A stretch of 64,000 nt of DNA from Lysobacterales bacterium 66-474 (GTDB lineage Bacteria; Pseudomonadota; Gammaproteobacteria; Xanthomonadales; Rhodanobacteraceae). The notes below the pieces were generated by a model that was given only the letters and a program-made list of their open reading frames with translations, was not told where the DNA came from and did not search any database. The stretch covers positions 248,001 to 312,000 of the forward strand of contig MKWP01000016.1 of assembly GCA_001899805.1 (NCBI GenBank). Direction: 5' to 3'. The translations under genes and the position numbers were made by a program. This document shows positions 6,888 through 45,190 of the stretch, piece by piece (position 1 is the first letter of the stretch; each line of letters opens with the position of its first letter).

Positions 6888-7988
6888 TCAAAGTCTCAAT
6901 GGCATCACGACATGCTGGGTTTGCTGGCTGGAAGCGCCGCGCAGAAGGCAACTCGACTGGGCGTCGCGCAACTGCAAGTGCACGCGTTCGTCATTGAGCG
7001 AACCCAATGCATCGAGCAAATACCCCACATTGAACCCGATGGCGATATCGCCCACCTTGGTTTCGGCTTCGATTTCTTCGAAAGCCTCTTCCTGTTCGGG
7101 GTTGTGGGCAATGATGCGCAGGCACTGCGGACTGACTTCCAGTCGAACGCCGCGGTACTTTTCGTTGGAGAGAATGGCTGCGCGCTGCAAGGCGTTGCGC
7201 ATGACTTCGCGCTCGACCTGGACCACCTTGTCAGCGCCAAGGGGGATGACCGCTTCGTAATCGGGAAACTTTCCGTCGATCAACTTGGAAGTAAACACCA
7301 CGTCGCCGCGGCGCACCCGGATGTGGTTGGTGGAAAACTCGACGCTCACCACATCGTCGCTGGCCTCGAACAGGCCAAGCAGTTCCGTCACGCCCTTGCG
7401 CGGGATGATGAGTTGGCGGTTGCCCTTGACGGGCACGTCCAGCGCCGTCTCGGACATCGCCATGCGGTGTCCGTCGGTCGCCACGCAACGCAATTCGGTG
7501 TTGCGCAGATCCAGCAGCAACCCGTTGAGGTAATAACGGACATCCTGATTCGCCATGGCAAAGGACGTGCGCTCCATCAAGCCGCGCAGGATCCCCTCCG
7601 GGAGGGAAACCTTGTCGGTCACCTCGATTTCGTCGGTGGTCGGGAACTCGTCCGCGGGCAGGCTGGCCAAGGTGTAGCGGCTTCGTCCGGCATGCATGAC
7701 GACCCGATCACCCTTGACCTGCACGTCGACCTTCACTCCGTCAGGCAACGCCCGGAGCAGGTCGAACCATTTTCTTGCCGGGACGGTGGTTTCGCCATCC
7801 TCGCCCAGTTCGACCGGGCAGCTCGAGCGCATCTCGACCTCGAGATCCGTCCCTGTCAGGGATAGCCTTCCCCCTTTGACTTGCACCAGAAGGTTGGCGA
7901 GAACAGGCAAGGTTTGCCGGCGTTCGACCACGCCGACGACCTGTTGCATCGGTTTGAGCAAGGATTCGCGTTGAATGCTGAAGCGCAT
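6888..7988 (-). CDS. dnaN: DNA polymerase III beta subunit (sliding clamp)
   Basis: 366 residues, the family's normal length. It starts MRFSIQRESLLKPMQQVVGVVERRQTLPVLANLL, the usual opening, and ends MPLRL, the clamp C-terminus (MPxRL/MPMRL in relatives). It dimerises into the ring that tethers replicative and repair polymerases to DNA. It follows dnaA after about 207 bases of probable origin DNA and precedes recF by 43 bases, so it may be transcribed from the origin region and with recF. Confidence 0.98.
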   Translation of the reverse strand: MRFSIQRESLLKPMQQVVGVVERRQTLPVLANLLVQVKGGRLSLTGTDLEVEMRSSCPVELGEDGETTVPARKWFDLLRALPDGVKVDVQVKGDRVVMHAGRSRYTLASLPADEFPTTDEIEVTDKVSLPEGILRGLMERTSFAMANQDVRYYLNGLLLDLRNTELRCVATDGHRMAMSETALDVPVKGNRQLIIPRKGVTELLGLFEASDDVVSVEFSTNHIRVRRGDVVFTSKLIDGKFPDYEAVIPLGADKVVQVEREVMRNALQRAAILSNEKYRGVRLEVSPQCLRIIAHNPEQEEAFEEIEAETKVGDIAIGFNVGYLLDALGSLNDERVHLQLRDAQSSCLLRGASSQQTQHVVMPLRL

Positions 7989-8195
7989 TGTTGATCCCCG
8001 TATCGGTCTTTTATCTTGGTTGTACTTGTAGATAAAGTCGTAGAAGCAGGCTTTGTTGATAACAGATGCTTTCTGTAATTTGCTTTATAAACAATAACTT
8101 ATCATCTTGTGCAGAGTTCTGCGCCGTTGGGACTAGCGGTGCATGAGTTGTGGATGATTTGTCGATCCCGCACCAGCCCGAAACTGTCCACAAGT
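7989..8195. other. oriC: Candidate replication origin (oriC) between dnaA and dnaN
   Basis: The 207-bp dnaA-dnaN gap contains 9-mers one mismatch from the DnaA box TTATCCACA: TGTAGATAA at 8027-8035, TGTTGATAA at 8054-8062 and TGTGGATGA at 8149-8157. A weaker CTGTCCACA lies at 8184-8192. Between them, 8062-8110 is strikingly AT-rich for this genome and could be the unwinding element. No perfect box is present. The alternative dnaA-rpmH gap has no comparable cluster, so I favour this gap. It must also hold the dnaN promoter. Confidence 0.65.
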
Positions 8196-9509
8196 TTACC
8201 CAGTCAATATCCGGATCAGCTTGTCCCAGTCCTGGCGCAGGCGCATGTCGGTGTCGCAAAGGCTCCGTATCTTCTTGCAGGCGTGCATCACCGTGGTGTG
8301 GTCCTTGCCCCCGAAGGCCTCGCCGATCTCCGGCAGGCTGTGCTCGGTCAGTTCCTTCGCCAGCGCCATGGCAATTTGCCGCGGCCGGGCCAGCGAGCGC
8401 AACCGTCGCTGTGACAGCAGGTCGGACAGGCGCAGCTGATAATAATCGGCGACGGTCTTCTGGATGTTCTGGACGGTGATCGCGCGCGCGTGCACGTTGA
8501 ACAGGTCACGCAGCGTTTCCTGGGCCAGTTCGACGGTGATCCCGCGTCCCGACAGGTTCGCTTGCGCCGCAACGGTGTTGAGCGCACCTTCCAGTTCGCG
8601 CACGTTCGAGCGGATCCGGCGCGCCAGCAACAGCGCGACGTCGCTGGGCAGCGGGATACCGCGGGTCTGGGCTTTTTCCAGCAGGATCGCGGCGCGGGTC
8701 TCGAAATCGGGCGGTTCGATGGCGACGGACAAGCCCCAGCCGAGGCGCGACTTCAACCGGAGCTCCAGATTGTCCACTTCCTTCGGGTAGCGGTCGCAGG
8801 TCAGGATGATCTGCTGGCGCGACTCGTAGAGCGTGTTGAAGGTGTGGAAGAACTCTTCCTGGGTCGCGTCCTTGCCGGCGAAGAACTGGATGTCGTCGAT
8901 CAGCAGCGCGTCGACCGAGCGAAAGCGGTGCTTGAAGTCGTCCATGTTCTTGTTGCGCAGCGCCGCGATCATCATTTCGGTAAAGCGTTCGGAATGCACG
9001 TACAGCAACTTCATCGACGGGTTGTGCTTCAGCATCAGATTGCCCGCGGCTTGCATCAGGTGGGTCTTGCCGAGGCCGGTGCCGCCGTAAAGAAGCAGGG
9101 GGTTGTAGGCGCGACCCGGGTTGTGGGCCACCTGCATGGCCGCGGCCTTGCCCAACTGGTTGGATTTGCCCTCGACGAAATTGTCGAAGGTGTAATGCGG
9201 ATCGAGATTGTGTTGCTGGGCGACCGGCGGCGGCACGCCTGGCGATGTGGCCAGCGGCTTGGGTACGGGCGAGATCGAACCCACCTCCAGGCGCAGCGGG
9301 ACAGGACGCCCGGCCAGCGCGGACAGGGTGCCCTCGATGCGCGCGAGGTAGCCGTTGCGCACGAATTCGAGGGTATAGGTGTTCGGCGCGAACAGCCTCA
9401 GGGTGCCGTCGTCGTCACGCGCCTGCAGCGGCTGCAGCCAGGTGTGCAACACGCCGGGTTCGATTTCGCCTTCGAGCCTGGCGAGGCAGCGTTGCCAGAG
9501 ATCGCTCAT
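8196..9509 (-). CDS. dnaA: Chromosomal replication initiator protein DnaA
   Basis: 437 residues from the ATG at 9509 ([15 protein letters not shown]), the normal DnaA start; longer readings are non-homologous. Domain I (1-80) is followed by a short Pro-rich linker, then the AAA+ domain with Walker A GGTGLGKT (142-149), Walker [13 protein letters not shown] and the sensor region. Domain IV carries the box-binding signature [13 protein letters not shown]. DnaA-ATP opens oriC and loads the helicase. The gene diverges from rpmH. A TAGACT-like -10 at 9583-9588 on the minus strand is a possible promoter but lacks a clear -35. Confidence 0.98.
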
Positions 9510-14111: not shown

Positions 14112-15462
<1,351 letters not shown>

Positions 15463-21462: not shown

Positions 21463-21779
21463 CCCTCTCCCGCTTGCGGGAGAGGGTTGGGGTGAGGGCA
21501 GTACTTGCCCCTCCGCGTGCGGGGAATCGACATCCCTGTCTTTTTCCGCGCCGCTACCCGCTTTGATTCCCTCTCCCTTCGGGAGAGGGTGCCCCGTCAG
21601 GGGCGGGTGAGGGTTCGACTCCTCGCGCGAGGTCACACGGCATCCCTGTCTTTTTCCGCCCGCCTTTCGCGCGAGCAACCTCCAACAATGTCGTCATTCC
21701 GGGGCCGCTCGAAGGGCGGAACCCGGAATCGGTTTGTTCTTCGCGGAAACCGCTGACCGACATCCCTGTCCTTTTCCGC
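21463..21779. repeat. Repeat mosaic after atpC: modules A-D-A-D-B-D
   Basis: Module A is a hairpin with CCCTCTCCCGC/GCGGGAGAGGG followed by GGGGTGAGGG (21463-21498), and a second A copy lies at 21569-21613. Module D is the 19-mer CATCCCTGTCTTTTTCCGC at 21531-21549 and 21641-21659, with one change at 21761-21779. Module B (GTCATTCCGGGGCC to ACCCGGAATC) lies at 21691-21731. No gene is visible here. Module C follows directly. Confidence 0.85.
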
Positions 21780-22082
21780 CCGCCTCCCGCGCGGGCGTGC
21801 CACTTTCTCTTGCGTCGCCAAGAGAAAGTGGCCAAAGAGAAGGCGACCCCGCGGACGTGCCCTTCGCACATCCATGTGCTGCGGGTCCGCTCGCGTGCGC
21901 CGGGGTTCGCCGACGGCACCTCCCTGCGCCGGCGGCGAACTGACCGGCTTCCTGCCGGTCATCCTTCGGACTGATCCGCCGCCCGCTCGCCGCGTCCGAG
22001 GGGCCCGATCTGGCACGCGTCGCATCGCGGATGTCCTCGCGGGTGACGGCGCCGTTGCCCGCTTCGCCGACGGCCATTCCTA
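21780..22082. repeat. Structured element, module C copy 1
   Basis: It begins with CGCCCGC/GCGGGCG arms and the perfect 12-bp hairpin CACTTTCTCTTG (21801-21812) with CAAGAGAAAGTG (21819-21830), then GGCCAAAGAG. GCACAT (21866-21871) and ATGTGC (21874-21879) form the next stem around CC, flanked by GCGGAC and GTCCGC. The same architecture recurs at 40771-41036 and, inverted, at 41833-42086. The long open frames here lack domains and ribosome-binding sites, so I treat the element as non-coding. Confidence 0.7.
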
Positions 22083-39743: not shown

Positions 39744-39809
39744 GGCGGCGCCTGTCCGGTAAAACAACGCATTCTAGCGAATGCGCCACAAGTCACGGTG
39801 ACCATGGGC

Positions 39810-39830
39810 CTATTGTCAACACCACAATAG
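39810..39830. promoter_or_regulatory. Inverted repeat between divergent gpmA and the lipoprotein gene
   Basis: CTATTGT (39810-39816) and ACAATAG (39824-39830) flank CAACACC, a perfect 7-7-7 palindrome in the shared upstream region. A dimeric regulator might bind here; no regulator is identified. Confidence 0.35.
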
Positions 39831-39876
39831 TAAGGCAGGATCAACGTTGCCACGCGCAAATGCGCAGGAGGGTTCC

Positions 39877-40605
39877 ATGCGATCCGCACGACTTTACGCA
39901 TACGTCTTCACCCTGTTGGCGTCACCGCTCGCGCTTGCCGCGTGCGTGAGCGGCGTCAACGGCTCGGTCGATGTCGCGGCAGGCTCGAGTGTTTCCGACG
40001 CCAGCACCGTCAACGGTTCGGTGAACGTCGCCGCCAAGGCCAAGGCCGGCAAGGCTTCCACCGTCAACGGCTCGATCAACATCGCCGAGGACGCGGAAGT
40101 CGGCAGCGCCAGCACCGTCAACGGGCATGTCACGCTCGGCCAGCACGCGACCGTCGGCAGCGTGGATACCGTCAACGGCGGCATCACCCTGGATGCCAAC
40201 GCCACCGTCACCGGCGACGTGACCGCGGTCAACGGTGCGCTCAGCCTCGCCAACGGTTCGGCCGTGAACGGCGCACTGACCAACGTCAACAGCCACATCA
40301 GCATCGACGGTGCCCACATCGGCAAGGGCATCACCACCGTCAACGGCGACATCGACATCACCGGCAACGCGGTGGTCGATGGCGGCATCAAGGTGAAGAA
40401 GCCGAGCGACAACGGCATCCTCGGCATCCACTTCGGCGGCGACAACATCCCGCGCATCACCATCGGCCCCGGCGCGACCGTGAACGGCCCGCTCGACTTC
40501 GAACGTCCAGTCAAGCTCTACATCAGCGACCAGGCGCATGTCGCGGGGCCGATCACCGGCGCAGAGCCGGTGAAGTTCTCGGGCGCGACGCCGCCGGCGT
40601 CCTGA
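39877..40605 (+). CDS. Lipoprotein with 18-residue VNG repeats (predicted parallel beta-helix)
   Basis: 242 residues from the ATG at 39877, with a strong AGGAGGG site. A lipobox LAAC puts the lipidated Cys at 23. The triplet VNG recurs at residues 27, 45, 63, 81, 99, 118 and 155, with V137 matching as VNS: exact 18- or 19-residue spacing, with short hydrophobic-polar alternations (VNVAA, INIAED, VTLGQ, ITLDA) between. This is the pattern of a regular parallel beta-helix rung, akin to polymer-forming bactofilin-like folds. The last part (about 175-242) has a different, less repetitive texture. Function unknown; envelope location is likely. Confidence 0.8.
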   Translation: MRSARLYAYVFTLLASPLALAACVSGVNGSVDVAAGSSVSDASTVNGSVNVAAKAKAGKASTVNGSINIAEDAEVGSASTVNGHVTLGQHATVGSVDTVNGGITLDANATVTGDVTAVNGALSLANGSAVNGALTNVNSHISIDGAHIGKGITTVNGDIDITGNAVVDGGIKVKKPSDNGILGIHFGGDNIPRITIGPGATVNGPLDFERPVKLYISDQAHVAGPITGAEPVKFSGATPPAS

Positions 40606-40630
40606 CGCACAACGCGGAGTTCCCGGCGTT

Positions 40631-40740
40631 CCCTTCCCCCGCTTGCGGGGGAAGGTGCCCGCAGGGCGGATGGGGGCGATTCTTGCACCCTCCCCCTCGC
40701 CGTCATTCCGGGGCGACCCGAAGGGTCGAACCCGGAATCC
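40631..40740. repeat. Modules A and B left of the orphan gene
   Basis: Module A: CCTTCCCCCGC (40632-40642) pairs with GCGGGGGAAGG (40645-40655), then GATGGGGG. Module B: GTCATTCCGGGGC to AACCCGGAATCC (40702-40740), with GACCC/GGGTC inside. Mirror copies lie at 42126-42258. The stretch has no gene. Confidence 0.85.
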
Positions 40741-40770
40741 ATGTTGATCTTGATCTCGCTCGCGTGAGTC

Positions 40771-41036
40771 GACGTTCGTGTCTTGGTTCCGCTCGCCTCC
40801 GCGGCGAGCGTGCGACTTTTGTTTCGGCAAAAGTCGCCAAAACCATTGCGCTGGGCATGCCGGCTTCAGCGACGTCGTGTCGCTGAAACTTCCCTGCGAT
40901 GCTCGCCGATCGCGCGCCGGCGCGAACTCCTACTTCCATGTAGTCGAACATGCGCGCCTTGCTCGCGCGATCGGCTGCGCTTCTCGGCGTCATGCAACGG
41001 CGCGTTCGTCGCTTCGCTGCCGGCCATCCATGGCCT
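40771..41036 (+). repeat. Structured element, module C copy 2 (left arm)
   Basis: Stems in order: CGCTCGCC/GGCGAGCG (40791-40810 region); GCGACTTTTG (40812-40821) with CAAAAGTCGC (40828-40837); TTCAGCGAC (40865-40873) with GTCGCTGAA (40879-40887); GATCGCGCG (40908-40916) with CGCGCGATC (40964-40972), inside which CTAC and GTAG (40930-40943) close on TTCCAT. It ends with GGCCATCCATGGCC (41022-41035). It is homologous, in reverse, to 41833-42086. Confidence 0.8.
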
Positions 41037-41177
41037 ACGTCCGTGGACGCGCCGAGTTTTCTGGACCCATCAGCGCACCCCGAAACGGTCGGCTCCGCAA
41101 ACGCGTTGATCGGCTTGCCCGCAGCGGCACACCGCTGGTGATAACTTACCGTTGCCTGATGTGTGGGACGCAAAACC

Positions 41178-41810
41178 ATGAACTTGTCTATTTCTTGGCA
41201 ACAATCAACCGGGATTGCGCGGTGGGTTGCGTCCATTGCTATTCCGGCTGCGGCGGGGTTGATCGGCGTCCTCATCGGCGCATGGCTTACATCTCGCCGA
41301 GAGCAAAAACAGCGAAAGCTGGCTTTTCTGGAGAAACAGCTGAGTTTCTTCTATTCCCCCATGCTTGGTCTTCGAAACGAGATCAGAGCGCGTGGTGCCT
41401 TTCGCGTGCAAGTGCAAACCGAAGCAGATGACGCGTGGAAACAGCTTTGTGGTGAAACTGAAGGTCTCAGTATTGATGCACGCCAACGCTTCTCAAGCGA
41501 GCGTTGGCCTGAGTTCTCGCGCATCATCGAATACGACAACACCAAGCTTCACGAGGAATTGTTACCGGCTTACAGAAAAATGGTTGCGCTTTTCCGTGAC
41601 GGTTACTGGTTGGCTGAACCAGAAACGCGGATTTATTACGCGGGCCTTCTCCAGTTTGTCGAAATCTGGGACCGCTGGGTCGACAAAGCTCTACCGCGTG
41701 AGGTCTTGAAACGGCTTGGGCATAACGAAGACAGCCTCACTCCGTTCTATGCGCATATTGAGCGAATGCACGACGCCATTCGCCAAAAGCTTAAGGATGG
41801 TGCTCCGTGA
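41178..41810 (+). CDS. Orphan membrane-anchored protein of unknown function, low GC
   Basis: 210 residues from the ATG at 41178 (or a GTG five codons earlier). A membrane segment (about 17-40, IAIPAAAGLIGVLIGAWLTS) is followed by a basic stretch (RREQKQRK) and a cytoplasmic, mostly helical domain with LEKQLSFFYSPMLGLRNEIRARG and a tryptophan-rich middle. I know no function for it. By eye its GC content is near half, clearly below neighbouring genes, and codon use is correspondingly different. It is framed by inverted copies of module C, then B, then A, suggesting arrival by transfer. Confidence 0.75.
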   Translation: MNLSISWQQSTGIARWVASIAIPAAAGLIGVLIGAWLTSRREQKQRKLAFLEKQLSFFYSPMLGLRNEIRARGAFRVQVQTEADDAWKQLCGETEGLSIDARQRFSSERWPEFSRIIEYDNTKLHEELLPAYRKMVALFRDGYWLAEPETRIYYAGLLQFVEIWDRWVDKALPREVLKRLGHNEDSLTPFYAHIERMHDAIRQKLKDGAP

Positions 41811-41832
41811 AGTAATCCTCGTGCGACAAGGC

Positions 41833-42086
41833 AGGCCATGGATGGCCGTCACCGAAGCGAGAAACGGCGCCATTGGCGGTGCCGCAGCTGCGCTGACGAT
41901 CGCGCGAGCAAGGCGCGGATGTTCGAGCGCAGGGATGCGCGAGTTCGCGCCGGCGCGCGATCGGCAAGCGGCAAGGGGAGTCGAGACAACAGGATGTTGT
42001 CGAGACCACTGCCTCCGGCGCAATGGTTTTTGGCTACTTTTTGCCGAAACAAAAAGTAGCACGCTCGCCGCTGAGGCGAGCGGAAC
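41833..42086 (-). repeat. Structured element, module C copy 3 (right arm, inverted)
   Basis: Read on the minus strand it repeats the order of copy 2: CGCTCGCC/GGCGAGCG; an 11-bp stem GCTACTTTTTG (42033-42043) with CAAAAAGTAGC (42050-42060); a palindrome around TGTTGTC; GATCGCGCG (41898-41906) with CGCGCGATC (41954-41962), inside which GCGC/GCGC (41927-41940) enclose ATCCCT on the minus strand; and GGCCATGGATGGCC (41834-41847). The small stems differ in sequence from copy 2 but remain paired. Confidence 0.8.
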
Positions 42087-42125
42087 CCGATACGTGCGTT
42101 GTGGACTTGCGAGAGACGCAAAAGA

Positions 42126-42258
42126 GATTCCGGGTTCCGCGCTACGCGCGGCCCCGGAATGACGAAGTGAGGGGAAGACGCGGAAAAAGACAGGGATGTC
42201 ATGCGAGACACGTACCCTCACCCGGCGCTGCGCGCCACCCTCTCCCACTGGGAGAGGG
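42126..42258 (-). repeat. Modules B, D and A right of the orphan gene (inverted)
   Basis: B: GATTCCGGGTTCCGCG to CCCCGGAATGACG (42126-42164). D: GCGGAAAAAGACAGGGATG (42180-42198), the complement of CATCCCTGTCTTTTTCCGC. A: ACCCTCACCC, then CCCTCTCCC (42238-42246) with GGGAGAGGG (42250-42258). This mirrors the left-hand order. A further CCGGGATGACG near 42285 is a degenerate B end. No gene lies between the orphan gene and algC. Confidence 0.85.
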
Positions 42259-42312
42259 AGAAAAGCTGGATCCCGGCCTGCGCCGGGATGACGAACGAGA
42301 GCGAAGCGCGCG

Positions 42313-44721
42313 TCAGAACGGCAACGCGAGCGTGTTGTCGCACGCCAGCAACTGCGCGCGGAACGCGTCCTGGATGCGCTTCAACGCATCGGCGTTGTCG
42401 GCGTCGAAGCGCAGCACCAGCACGGGCGTCGTGTTCGACGCGCGCACCAGCCCCCAGCCGTCCGGCCAGTCGGCGCGCACGCCGTCGATGGTGGTGATGC
42501 GCGCGCCGTCGAATTGCGCGCGGTCGCGGAAGCGCGTGATGAAGGGATGGTTCTGGCCTTCCTGCATCGGGATGTGCAGTTCGGGCGTGGACACGCCTTT
42601 CGGTAGCGTGGCGAAGATTTCCTCGGGCGCGCGGCCTTCGGGATCGTCGGCGAGGATTTCGAGCAGCCGCGCGGCGGCGTAGACGCCGTCGTCGAAGCCG
42701 TACCAGCGTTCGCGGAAGAAGAAGTGTCCGCTCATCTCGCCGGCGAGTTGCGCGCCGGTTTCCTTCATCTTGGCCTTGATCAAGGAGTGCCCGGTTTTCC
42801 ACATCAGCGGGCTGCCGCCGGCTTTCAGGATCAGCGGTTGCAGATGTCCCGTGCATTTGACGTCGTACAGGATCGTCGCACCGGGATTGCGGGTCAGCAC
42901 GTCCTGCGCGAACAGCATCAGCACCCGATCGGGGTAGATGATTTCGCCCGCCTTGGTCACGACGCCGAGGCGGTCGCCGTCGCCGTCGAAAGCCAGGCCG
43001 ATGTCGGCGCCGGTTTTCTGCACCATCAGGATCAGGTCGGCGAGGTTCTTGGGCTCGGATGGGTCGGGATGGTGGTTGGGGAAGGTGCCGTCGACGTCGC
43101 AGTACAGCGGGATCGGTTCGCAGCCGATCGCGTGCACCACGCCCGGCGCGGTGTTGCCGGCGATGCCGTTGCCGCAGTCGACCACGACCTTCAGCGCGCG
43201 TCCGGTCTGGATGTCGGCGGCGATGCGGTCGATGTATTCCGCGGCGATGTCGTGCAGGCGCAGCGAGCCGCTACCTTCGGCGAAGCGGTGGTCGGCGATG
43301 CGCTGGTAGAGGTCCTGGATCGCGTCTTCGGCCAGGGTTTCGCCGCCGATCACGATCTTGAAGCCGTTGTAGTCGGGAGGATTGTGGCTGCCGGTGACCG
43401 ATACGCACGAGCCGGTGTTGAGTTGGTAGGCGGCGAAGTAGCTGACCGGCGTCGGCACCGCGCCGATGTCGACCACGTCCACGCCGGTTTCTCGCAGCCC
43501 CTCGATCAACGCGCCGGAAAGATCCGGTCCCGACAGCCGGCCGTCGCGGCCGACCACGATCTCGTGCAGGTCCTTGTCGCGCACGGCGCTGCCGATCGCG
43601 CGGCCGAGTTGGCGCGCGACGCCTTCGGTCAGCGTCTGGCCGACCACGCCGCGGATGTCGTAGGCGCGGAAGATGCCGCGATCCGGAATCGGGTCGTCCT
43701 GCGCGGCGGTCGCGGCGGCGGGCATTCCCCGCTTCACCGCCGGTGCGGGTTTGGCCGAAGGCTTGGGCGAGGCAGGCGTCGTCGCGACGACTTCGGACAG
43801 CACGGGTTCGTCGCGCAGCGGTGCGCCACCGAGGCGCGCACGCAGGCGCGGGCGCGACCACAGCAGCAGCACGCCGATCACGAACGCCGCGACGGCCAGC
43901 CCCAGCGCGAATGCCAACGACTGCGTGACCGGCAACCAGAACTGCGGTGGTGCGGAGGTGATGCGGAGCAGGCTGTGCGGCACCGCCACGCCCGGATCGT
44001 CGGCACTGGACAGGCCGCTGGCGCCGGCGCTGGCGAGCACGATGTCTCCGGATTGGGTGCTTTGGCGCAGGTCGAGCCTGCCTTCGCGGACCTGCGCTCC
44101 GGCCAGCACGATGCGCAGCGGCGCATCGGAAAAATCGACCGTGGCCCAGGCCAGCGGCTTGCCGTCCGGGCCCGGGATGGGGCCGGCGAAACTTGTCACA
44201 TGCGCGACCGGCGCTTGTGCGGCGCCGATGTCGCCGTCGCTGAGCGCGGACATCAGTTGCGCTGCGCGCGCATAGCCGAGTTGCTGCAGGTTGCCGTGCA
44301 GCACTTCGTTGAGCTGGTTGCTGTACAGCGTCACCGCCCGGGCATCCTTCAGCCCCGCCTTGATGAGCTGCGCAACCGCGCTGCGCGTGGCGTCGTCGTC
44401 GGCGAGTTGTGCGGCCAGCGTGGGCTGGCCGAGCGCCTTGACCACCTGCGCGCGTTCGTCGGCGATGATCAGCGCGATCTTCTGCGCGGCGTCCAGGCGG
44501 GCCTGCGCCAGCGCTTCGGCGTCGGCGGTCTGGCGCGTCAGCAGCCATGCCTGCCAGCCCATGAACAAACCGAACAGGGCCAGCAGGGTACCCAGTGCGA
44601 GCGCGAGGTCAGCGACGATCTCGGCGATGCCGCGGCGCAGGCTGAAACGCGCGCCGACAGCTCGCGCGGCCGCCTGCACGTCGGGGGTTTTCTTCTTGAC
44701 GCCCGTCGATTCGTTGACCAT
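42313..44721 (-). CDS. algC: Phosphomannomutase/phosphoglucomutase with N-terminal membrane sensor-like domain
   Basis: 802 residues from the ATG at 44721. The C-terminal 440 residues are a complete alpha-D-phosphohexomutase: RAYDIRGVVGQTL, the phosphoserine loop TGSHNPPDYNG, metal-binding DGDGDRLG, sugar-recognition GEMSGHFFF and phosphate-binding RASNTTPVLVLRF. The first 330 residues add two membrane helices (about 35-60 and 270-295) flanking a periplasmic domain, then a Pro/Ala linker. It makes mannose-1-P and glucose-1-P for exopolysaccharide and LPS. The N-terminal domain could sense envelope state (inference). Only one base separates it from the dut stop. Confidence 0.93.
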   Translation of the reverse strand: MVNESTGVKKKTPDVQAAARAVGARFSLRRGIAEIVADLALALGTLLALFGLFMGWQAWLLTRQTADAEALAQARLDAAQKIALIIADERAQVVKALGQPTLAAQLADDDATRSAVAQLIKAGLKDARAVTLYSNQLNEVLHGNLQQLGYARAAQLMSALSDGDIGAAQAPVAHVTSFAGPIPGPDGKPLAWATVDFSDAPLRIVLAGAQVREGRLDLRQSTQSGDIVLASAGASGLSSADDPGVAVPHSLLRITSAPPQFWLPVTQSLAFALGLAVAAFVIGVLLLWSRPRLRARLGGAPLRDEPVLSEVVATTPASPKPSAKPAPAVKRGMPAAATAAQDDPIPDRGIFRAYDIRGVVGQTLTEGVARQLGRAIGSAVRDKDLHEIVVGRDGRLSGPDLSGALIEGLRETGVDVVDIGAVPTPVSYFAAYQLNTGSCVSVTGSHNPPDYNGFKIVIGGETLAEDAIQDLYQRIADHRFAEGSGSLRLHDIAAEYIDRIAADIQTGRALKVVVDCGNGIAGNTAPGVVHAIGCEPIPLYCDVDGTFPNHHPDPSEPKNLADLILMVQKTGADIGLAFDGDGDRLGVVTKAGEIIYPDRVLMLFAQDVLTRNPGATILYDVKCTGHLQPLILKAGGSPLMWKTGHSLIKAKMKETGAQLAGEMSGHFFFRERWYGFDDGVYAAARLLEILADDPEGRAPEEIFATLPKGVSTPELHIPMQEGQNHPFITRFRDRAQFDGARITTIDGVRADWPDGWGLVRASNTTPVLVLRFDADNADALKRIQDAFRAQLLACDNTLALPF

Positions 44722-44722
44722 G

Positions 44723-45190
44723 TCACGCAACCCCGGTGGAGCCGAATCCGCCGGCGCCACGTTCGCTCGGTGCGAAGTCTCCCACCATCCGCCACGCCAC
44801 GCGCGCCACCGGCGTCACCAGCAGTTGCGCGATGCGGTCGCCCGGTTGGATGGTAAACGGCGCGTTGCCGCGGTTCCAGCACGAGATCATCAAGGGACCC
44901 TGGTAATCCGCGTCGACCAGGCCGGTGAGGTTGCCCAGCACCAGTCCGTGCTTGTGGCCGAGGCCCGAGCGCGGCAGGATCAGCGCGCACCAGCCGGGAT
45001 CGGCGATGTGGATCGCGAGCCCGGTCGGGATCAGCGCGCTGTCGCCGGGGGCGAGGACGACCGCGGTTTCCGGCGCGGCGCGCAGGTCCATCGCGGCGCT
45101 GCCGTCGGTCGCGTACGCGGGCAGCGGAATGCTCGTCCCGAGGCGCGGGTCGAGGCGTTTCAGTTCCACGCCCACCACGCTTGCGCTCAT
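44723..45190 (-). CDS. dut: Deoxyuridine 5'-triphosphate nucleotidohydrolase
   Basis: 155 residues, trimeric dUTPase type. Conserved motifs: [14 protein letters not shown] (I), [11 protein letters not shown] (II), [15 protein letters not shown] (III), PGDRIAQLL (IV) and the C-terminal [10 protein letters not shown] (V) that closes the active site. It keeps dUTP low and supplies dUMP. Its ATG overlaps the coaB stop (ATGA), and algC follows, the coaBC-dut-algC order also seen in pseudomonads. Confidence 0.97.

Follow-up and report, generated by a model that had tools for sequence, protein, structure and literature searches.

A stretch of intergenic DNA in the window (the whole 64 kb analysed here, lying on contig C16 of the genome G000, which comprises 3.73 Mb in 16 contigs) raises the question of how a single low-GC gene came to be enclosed by a nested mirror image of repeats. 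To its left lies a bactofilin-like lipoprotein gene (39847-40605; Pfam Bactofilin 2.4e-5, 24.9 bits, below the cut-off of 27.9) and to its right, on the minus strand, a gene with a phosphomannomutase domain (42313-44760), here labelled algC. The first-pass annotation read the composite between these neighbours as A-B-C-gene-C'-B'-A' and considered that it might move as a unit with the repeats as its ends. The features are listed below, together with one further member of the repeat family found in the window.

40631-40676, plus strand: outer repeat A, a GC-rich hairpin (read from the sequence)
40702-40741, plus strand: left repeat B, GTCATTCCGG..CCCGGAATCCA (repeat search; orientation rule)
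40769-40784, plus strand: D-like outer terminus of the left arm, CGACGTTCGTGTCTTG, consensus CGACATCCCTGTCTT (sequence)
40785-41036, plus strand: arm C, with its tail GGCCATCCATGGCC at 41022-41035 towards the gene (repeat search and profile; covarying structure)
41036-41047, plus strand: left core half, TACGTCCGTGGA, a degraded TGCN6GCA (core comparison)
41178-41810, plus strand: cargo, a 210-aa gene of GC 0.526, orphan by homology searches (sequence and homology searches)
41822-41833, minus strand: right core half, intact on this strand, TGCCTTGTCGCA (core comparison)
41834-42087, minus strand: arm C', inverted (repeat search and profile)
42126-42164, minus strand: repeat B', inverted (repeat search)
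42182-42201, minus strand: D', a terminus-like sequence outside B' (sequence)
42214-42258, minus strand: repeat A', inverted (sequence)
21758-22021 (also 21638-21678), minus strand: further family member, a Y half without C (profile search)

Direct reading and an inverted-repeat search both bear out the mirror order. Inverted pairs were obtained at 40785-40820/42052-42087 (94%), 40901-41003/41867-41969 (78%), 41003-41036/41833-41866 (88%) and 40692-40746/42119-42173 (75%), and the two C arms align over ~250 nt at 78% identity (E 8e-48 in a BLAST search of their own genome). The symmetry holds overall but fails in the detail of D, the left D-like end lying between B and C and D' lying beyond B'.

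The enclosed gene

None of 634 sliding windows of 633 bp (step 100) across the 64 kb has a GC content lower than that of the gene. An alternative GTG start at 41163 is possible, and a hydrophobic stretch close to the N-terminus of the protein can be read from the sequence. No Pfam, NCBIfam or PADLOC family matched above cut-off. Homologues were found neither in the 40 other genomes of the relatives search (41 including its own) nor in the 397 other genomes of the phylum sample (398 including its own), and none was found among viral contigs or plasmids. A collection of 84,980 species genomes yielded one homologue, at 47% identity, which belongs to a Candidatus Tectomicrobia MAG; the DNA around it is low in GC and has no C match. 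The AlphaFold2 model of the protein, built on a two-sequence alignment, has a mean pLDDT of 48. As judged by these sequence comparisons the gene is an orphan, and the first impression that it looks foreign was upheld both by its GC, which is under that of every equal-size window, and by its lack of matches in the relatives search and phylum sample. A second low-GC stretch of the window, at 7501-8533, has a GC of 0.548-0.559 in four 633-bp windows.

Structure and distribution of the C repeat

C is a structured repeat of ~253 nt with covarying hairpins. When the window's C was used as query, each of the 16 genus genomes yielded matches; outside the genus, matches were few and weak and came from 3 of 25 genomes. 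Profile searches revealed at least 28 copies in G000 and 133 copies, with split matches merged, in 112 loci, namely the window, 20 others from G000 and 91 from relatives; these loci were chosen among the matches listed, noticed pairs first, and their filled and empty shares are no genus-wide estimate. The least biased set, which is all copies longer than 100 bp among the matches listed for G000, consists of 12 arms in 6 pairs, 10 C-Y copies, 4 single copies with a tail and 2 partial copies.

An alignment of 96 copies (from 99 listed references, three of which were left out) gave a fold of 52 pairs, 34 of which have both sides changed in at least one sequence. Whole stems fall into discrete alleles, such as GCCGATCGCGCG (22), GCGCCAAGCGGG (20) and GCCGAACGGCGG (12) in one arm of the main stem. 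The hairpin stems of C vary as whole alleles with few half-changed intermediates, a pattern that looks like stem swapping or templated correction and not like single mutations. The covariation itself may have arisen in RNA, in folded single-stranded DNA or through hairpin-templated correction; comparison of G-U with A-C mismatches in the stems gave no clear signal on either strand. Rfam returned nothing above the gathering score in seven C-bearing sources and no match up to E 5 in window positions 39800-42400.

Three arrangements of C were observed: C-Y, C-C' with the tails facing, and single C. In the first, a half element of 311 nt, Y, comes after C, and the C head recurs in inverted form at the outer end of Y. 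Here, 39 of 41 Y matches come after C in the same order and within 32 nt of it, none comes before C, and two stand alone. The Y half at 21758-22021 of the window is a decayed member of the same repeat family, and its site carries C in two other genomes, G012 (L149) and G007 (L178). Single C copies at one site in four species (L126, L146, L156 and L176) have identities of 0.865-0.931, and in L126, L146 and L176 the C tail reaches an ATG within ~60 nt, in similar sequence; these copies are possibly domesticated.

The outer repeats of the composite are not peculiar to the window. A B motif was found within 200 bp of the C head in 26 of 117 arms in one orientation and in 1 of 117 in the other (45 of 2000 control windows), and 22 of the 26 lie 19-54 nt from the head. 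The D terminus ends at the C head in 36/117 arms vs 0/2000 control windows, and A-like motifs occur within 200 bp of the head in 13/117 vs 10/2000. The A-B-C order is a tendency of the arms, with A and B on the head side, and two such arms placed face to face account for the nested mirror. The outer A and B repeats would be passengers that prefer the head side.

Tail-to-tail pairs and the empty palindrome

The mirrored composite recurs across the genus. The 112 loci contain 26 pairs of C copies no more than 2 kb apart. Of these, 25 are tail-to-tail and none is head-to-head, the lone exception being a 64-nt fragment in direct orientation; in G000 all six pairs are tail-to-tail. The 25 comprise 11 empty pairs, 11 occupied pairs and 3 collapsed, overlapping palindromes.

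In the empty pairs, 27-32 nt separate the profile ends, and the consensus of the core is TGCN6GCA-N3-TGCN6GCA. The length of this core is exactly 27 nt in 9 of the 11 (8 by pattern, L177 by reading), 26 nt in L171, and altered in L095. Depending on the base, the six dyad positions are conserved at 17 to 21 of 21 arm ends; both ends of an empty element were counted, and these are not independent. Occupied elements mostly retain the outer TGC (T 22, G 15 and C 18 of 23), while the bases of the inner GCA survive in fewer than half (11, 8 and 11 of 23), which gives no support to exact insertion at the centre of the core. Copies of C lacking a tail were dropped from this statistic, and the left arm of L076 enters it twice, once among the filled arms, to which it was added by hand, and once among the single ones.

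The occupied pairs hold 82-1091 bp between the tails. Nine of them contain a gene, and the other two, L024 (136 bp) and L090 (82 bp), do not. No large insert was found within any arm: no two C fragments in collinear order on one strand were seen within 3 kb of each other. Collapsed elements, the arms of which meet at internal points, were seen at L156:8374-8556, L172:2476-2776, L174:2465-2716 and L077:1457-1485, a form that deletion at a long hairpin's tip would be expected to leave.

Sites shared between species

The window's site could be compared in six of 15 genus relatives (G004, G006, G009, G010, G012 and G013; G001, G003 and G008 were left out). The nearest relative, G004, carries A, a shortened C, two genes, a remnant of C', B' and A'. 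Its flanks are 90-91% identical to those of G000, and the tail-proximal part of the left arm is 84% identical over 102 nt. G006 retains only a collapsed head hairpin and the outer extension. Versions of the lipoprotein-algC site free of C, which the first-pass annotation had envisaged in relatives, were found in G009, G010, G012 and G013, where the spacers are short. The first-pass annotation would have been refuted by conservation of the region throughout the relatives with the repeats elsewhere in random order; neither was observed. In G015, a single C (L165:2131-2372) lies 27 nt past the lipoprotein gene with its tail towards the gene; algC is not in the 5 kb examined beside this lipoprotein gene and is found elsewhere in the assembly. 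In G002, G005, G007, G011 and G014 the lipoprotein gene is not in the stretch examined beside algC.

Many of the other elements, too, have counterparts at the orthologous intergenic site of several species, and their state varies. L020 and L087 are filled, and at the same sites, with both flanks common, L171 and L170 respectively are empty. Both flanks are likewise common to the window and G004 and to L011 and L089, and one flank is common to L015 and L088; within none of these three pairs do the cargoes match each other in DNA or protein. On the strength of such comparisons, the composite is probably an occupied palindromic single-gene slot at a fixed intergenic site, the cargo of which would change over time.

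A different use of the inverted arms would be one in which recombination between them flips the cargo and the mirror acts as a phase switch. L011 and L089 have the outer sequence and one arm in common (322 bp at 88.5% identity), and between the two the element lies inverted with respect to the flanking DNA; the arms of L015 and L088 match better crosswise (85.6% and 80.7% vs 78.8% and 74.9%), and cargo genes occur in both orientations. The inverted pairs, however, differ in cargo, inversion of one and the same cargo was not seen, and the arms are only ~72% alike on average, which makes a switch of this kind very improbable.

A non-autonomous composite transposon of the mobile-insertion-cassette or MITE type was also considered, in which the arms would serve as terminal inverted repeats, a transposase would act in trans and the gene would be carried along. 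The inverted ends with their conserved outer terminus, the D end at the C heads, fit such an element, as do the foreign cargo, the dispersed copies and the absence of a transposase among the cargo proteins examined. It is nevertheless at odds with several observations, which also count against the initial suggestion of movement as a unit with the repeats as ends. DNA and protein comparison revealed no cargo common to any two of the examined sites. Inspection by eye of the one plus/minus site compared showed no target duplication, the intergenic DNA of relatives at the window's site being too diverged for this purpose. The arms of one element have a mean identity of 0.717 (13 elements) vs ~0.75 for random copies, and elements stand at orthologous sites with different contents. 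We consider a composite transposon unlikely.

A comparison of C copies between sites counts against the slot and against simple inheritance of its arms. Copies of C at the same site are on average 0.760 identical vs 0.748 for copies at other sites, and the nearest neighbour is a same-site copy in 8 of 73 cases (the site labels were set by hand, and S16 lumps two copies). Given that same-site copies are on average not more alike, many sites may be refilled or converted and not inherited unchanged; the closely similar single copies of L126, L146, L156 and L176 are among the exceptions.

Cargo genes and integron cassettes

Genes were found in the nine occupied pairs noted above and in the G004 element, which has two genes and arms too truncated to count as a pair; each holds one or two genes. 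The GC of these ten cargo stretches is 0.52-0.59 vs 0.66 for G000 loci. Pfam matches above cut-off identified an FRG protein (L087), Mrr_cat (L100), Mrr_N (L089) and, in G004, DUF4440 and SnoaL. The L096 cargo is RAMA/DUF4357/DUF2924-like, below the cut-offs, and the L088 protein and the four cargo proteins of G000 matched no Pfam family above cut-off. Models for candidate defence genes in PADLOC matched 3 of the 11 cargo proteins tested, with values of 1.6e-91 (L100), 1.3e-39 (L087) and 5e-8 over one domain (L096).

Some of the cargo is linked to integrons. An attC covariance model was built from 15 of 30 attC sites collected from integron loci and run over 14 sources. In the G004 cargo it detected an attC between the two genes (40 bits, E 6.6e-7) and none at the outer end adjoining C. 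A second attC was found in L111 (43 bits, E 1.2e-7), 27 bp from the C tail and near a contig end. A half site in L088, matched by profile (E 9.3e-6), was not supported by the covariance model (E 0.27), and L015 gave a weak hint (E 1.7). The model found no attC up to E 5 in the window, and none in the remaining cargoes. Over 477 nt, the DUF4440 gene of G004 has 87% identity with the cassette that stands first beside intI in G006. This match begins at CGTTAGGC, which is a cassette boundary upstream of which the two sequences differ, and it extends to the end of the G006 contig. The cargo of G004 at the window's site is made of integron cassettes, with attC and a G^TTRRRY boundary.

Two of at least 89 attC matches in seven genomes (150 candidates scored per genome), those of G004 and L111, lie beside C tails vs 0.03 expected by length (cargo ~8.2 kb of ~23 Mb), a comparison in which most attC lie elsewhere and those in arrays are not independent. 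Sites of attC away from both integron and C pairs, single or in small clusters, were seen at L028:404-1646 and in G000, G004, G006, G014 and others. The integron region of G004 contains a 253-nt direct repeat (L132:12983-13235 and 14177-14429), which has no C match despite its equal length.

IntI was found above cut-off in 8 of the 16 genus genomes. The match in G000 is on contig C11 and the window on C16, and no integrase or attI lies beside the window cargo. Two genomes with occupied elements, G015 (L088, L111) and G007 (L096), both fragmented assemblies, gave no IntI above cut-off, which counts against IntI as the agent in general. In Xanthomonas, by way of comparison, the integron has been described as ancestral to the genus (PMC12444791). 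Since IntI acts on folded attC and on off-target sites, as documented (PMC10127599), it is plausible as the inserter of the cassette cargoes; for the window gene nothing points to IntI directly.

The same facts would allow off-target cassettes simply to enter hairpin-rich intergenic DNA, with the C pairs as tolerant bystanders. The presence of IntI in half of the genus genomes, the attC outside arrays and away from C pairs, and the documented off-target activity (PMC10127599) are all compatible with this. Against it, cargo is found between two C tails while the arms are without large inserts, 39 of 41 Y matches follow C within 32 nt, and most cargoes, that of the window included, have no significant attC. 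We give little credence to C as a mere bystander.

Discussion

If the composite is an occupied slot, the empty palindrome, two C arms tail-to-tail about a 27-nt dyad core, would be the basic unit. Comparison of species suggests that a foreign gene lodges at the core of an empty element already in place, after which the arms would stay and the cargo would be replaced or lost, or the element would collapse. The window gene would have arrived in the same way as the other cargoes. For cassette cargoes, an off-target integron integrase is the leading candidate agent. Long palindromes break, and capture of a gene by break repair at the unstable tip of the hairpin would be an alternative. A more far-reaching proposal, which we put forward tentatively and regard as rather unlikely, is that many palindromic single-gene docking sites with a dedicated 27-nt core, scattered along the chromosome at sites shared across species and filled with and emptied of foreign genes, including integron cassettes and candidate defence genes, might form a distributed gene-capture system beside the integron, like an array split into single slots.

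Several known systems resemble this arrangement in part. Foldback elements have long inverted arms and a centre that is optional and variable, as in the C element; the latter differs in being bacterial and in its small covarying hairpins, its core dyad and its sites common to several species. Clusters of attC without an integrase are known. The G004 cargo, consisting of integron cassettes with attC, resembles the cassettes outside arrays described in PMC10127599, although it lies between C arms and away from intI, and the window cargo is without a recognisable attC. Mobile insertion cassettes and TIME-type composites likewise carry passenger genes between inverted repeats without a transposase (PMC6304161, PMC4133298). 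Mobile insertion cassettes, as these sources describe them, have 38-bp transposon ends, whereas the C arms are structured repeats of ~250 nt; the C element furthermore showed no target duplication at the site compared and no repeated cargo at the examined sites, and it has an empty form with a 27-nt core. REP/BIME sequences with RAYT are also dispersed intergenic palindromes in inverted arrangement, and by the description in PMC2817692 the C unit is about ten times longer and, unlike them, carries cargo. Despite its many C copies, G000 has no Y1_Tnp match, and 7 of the 16 genus genomes have one. A Y1 transposase (RAYT) was set aside as the mover in G000 on the same count.

No description of the C element was recognised in the literature searched, which was judged by titles and the starts of abstracts and had most subscription papers outside its scope. 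Within that literature, the element is a new variant of known themes, namely inverted repeats around passengers and cassettes outside arrays. The tail-to-tail rule, the 27-nt dyad core and the turnover of foreign genes at shared sites were not found described there.

The C arms clearly exemplify compensatory change of whole stems in a DNA repeat. If the composite is indeed such a slot, the genomes of this genus would hold small fixed places for keeping and exchanging single foreign genes, which would explain orphan low-GC genes between housekeeping genes. The elements would then amount to a list of places in which to seek new defence-type genes, and the exit of cassettes from integrons and their settling elsewhere would become testable site by site.
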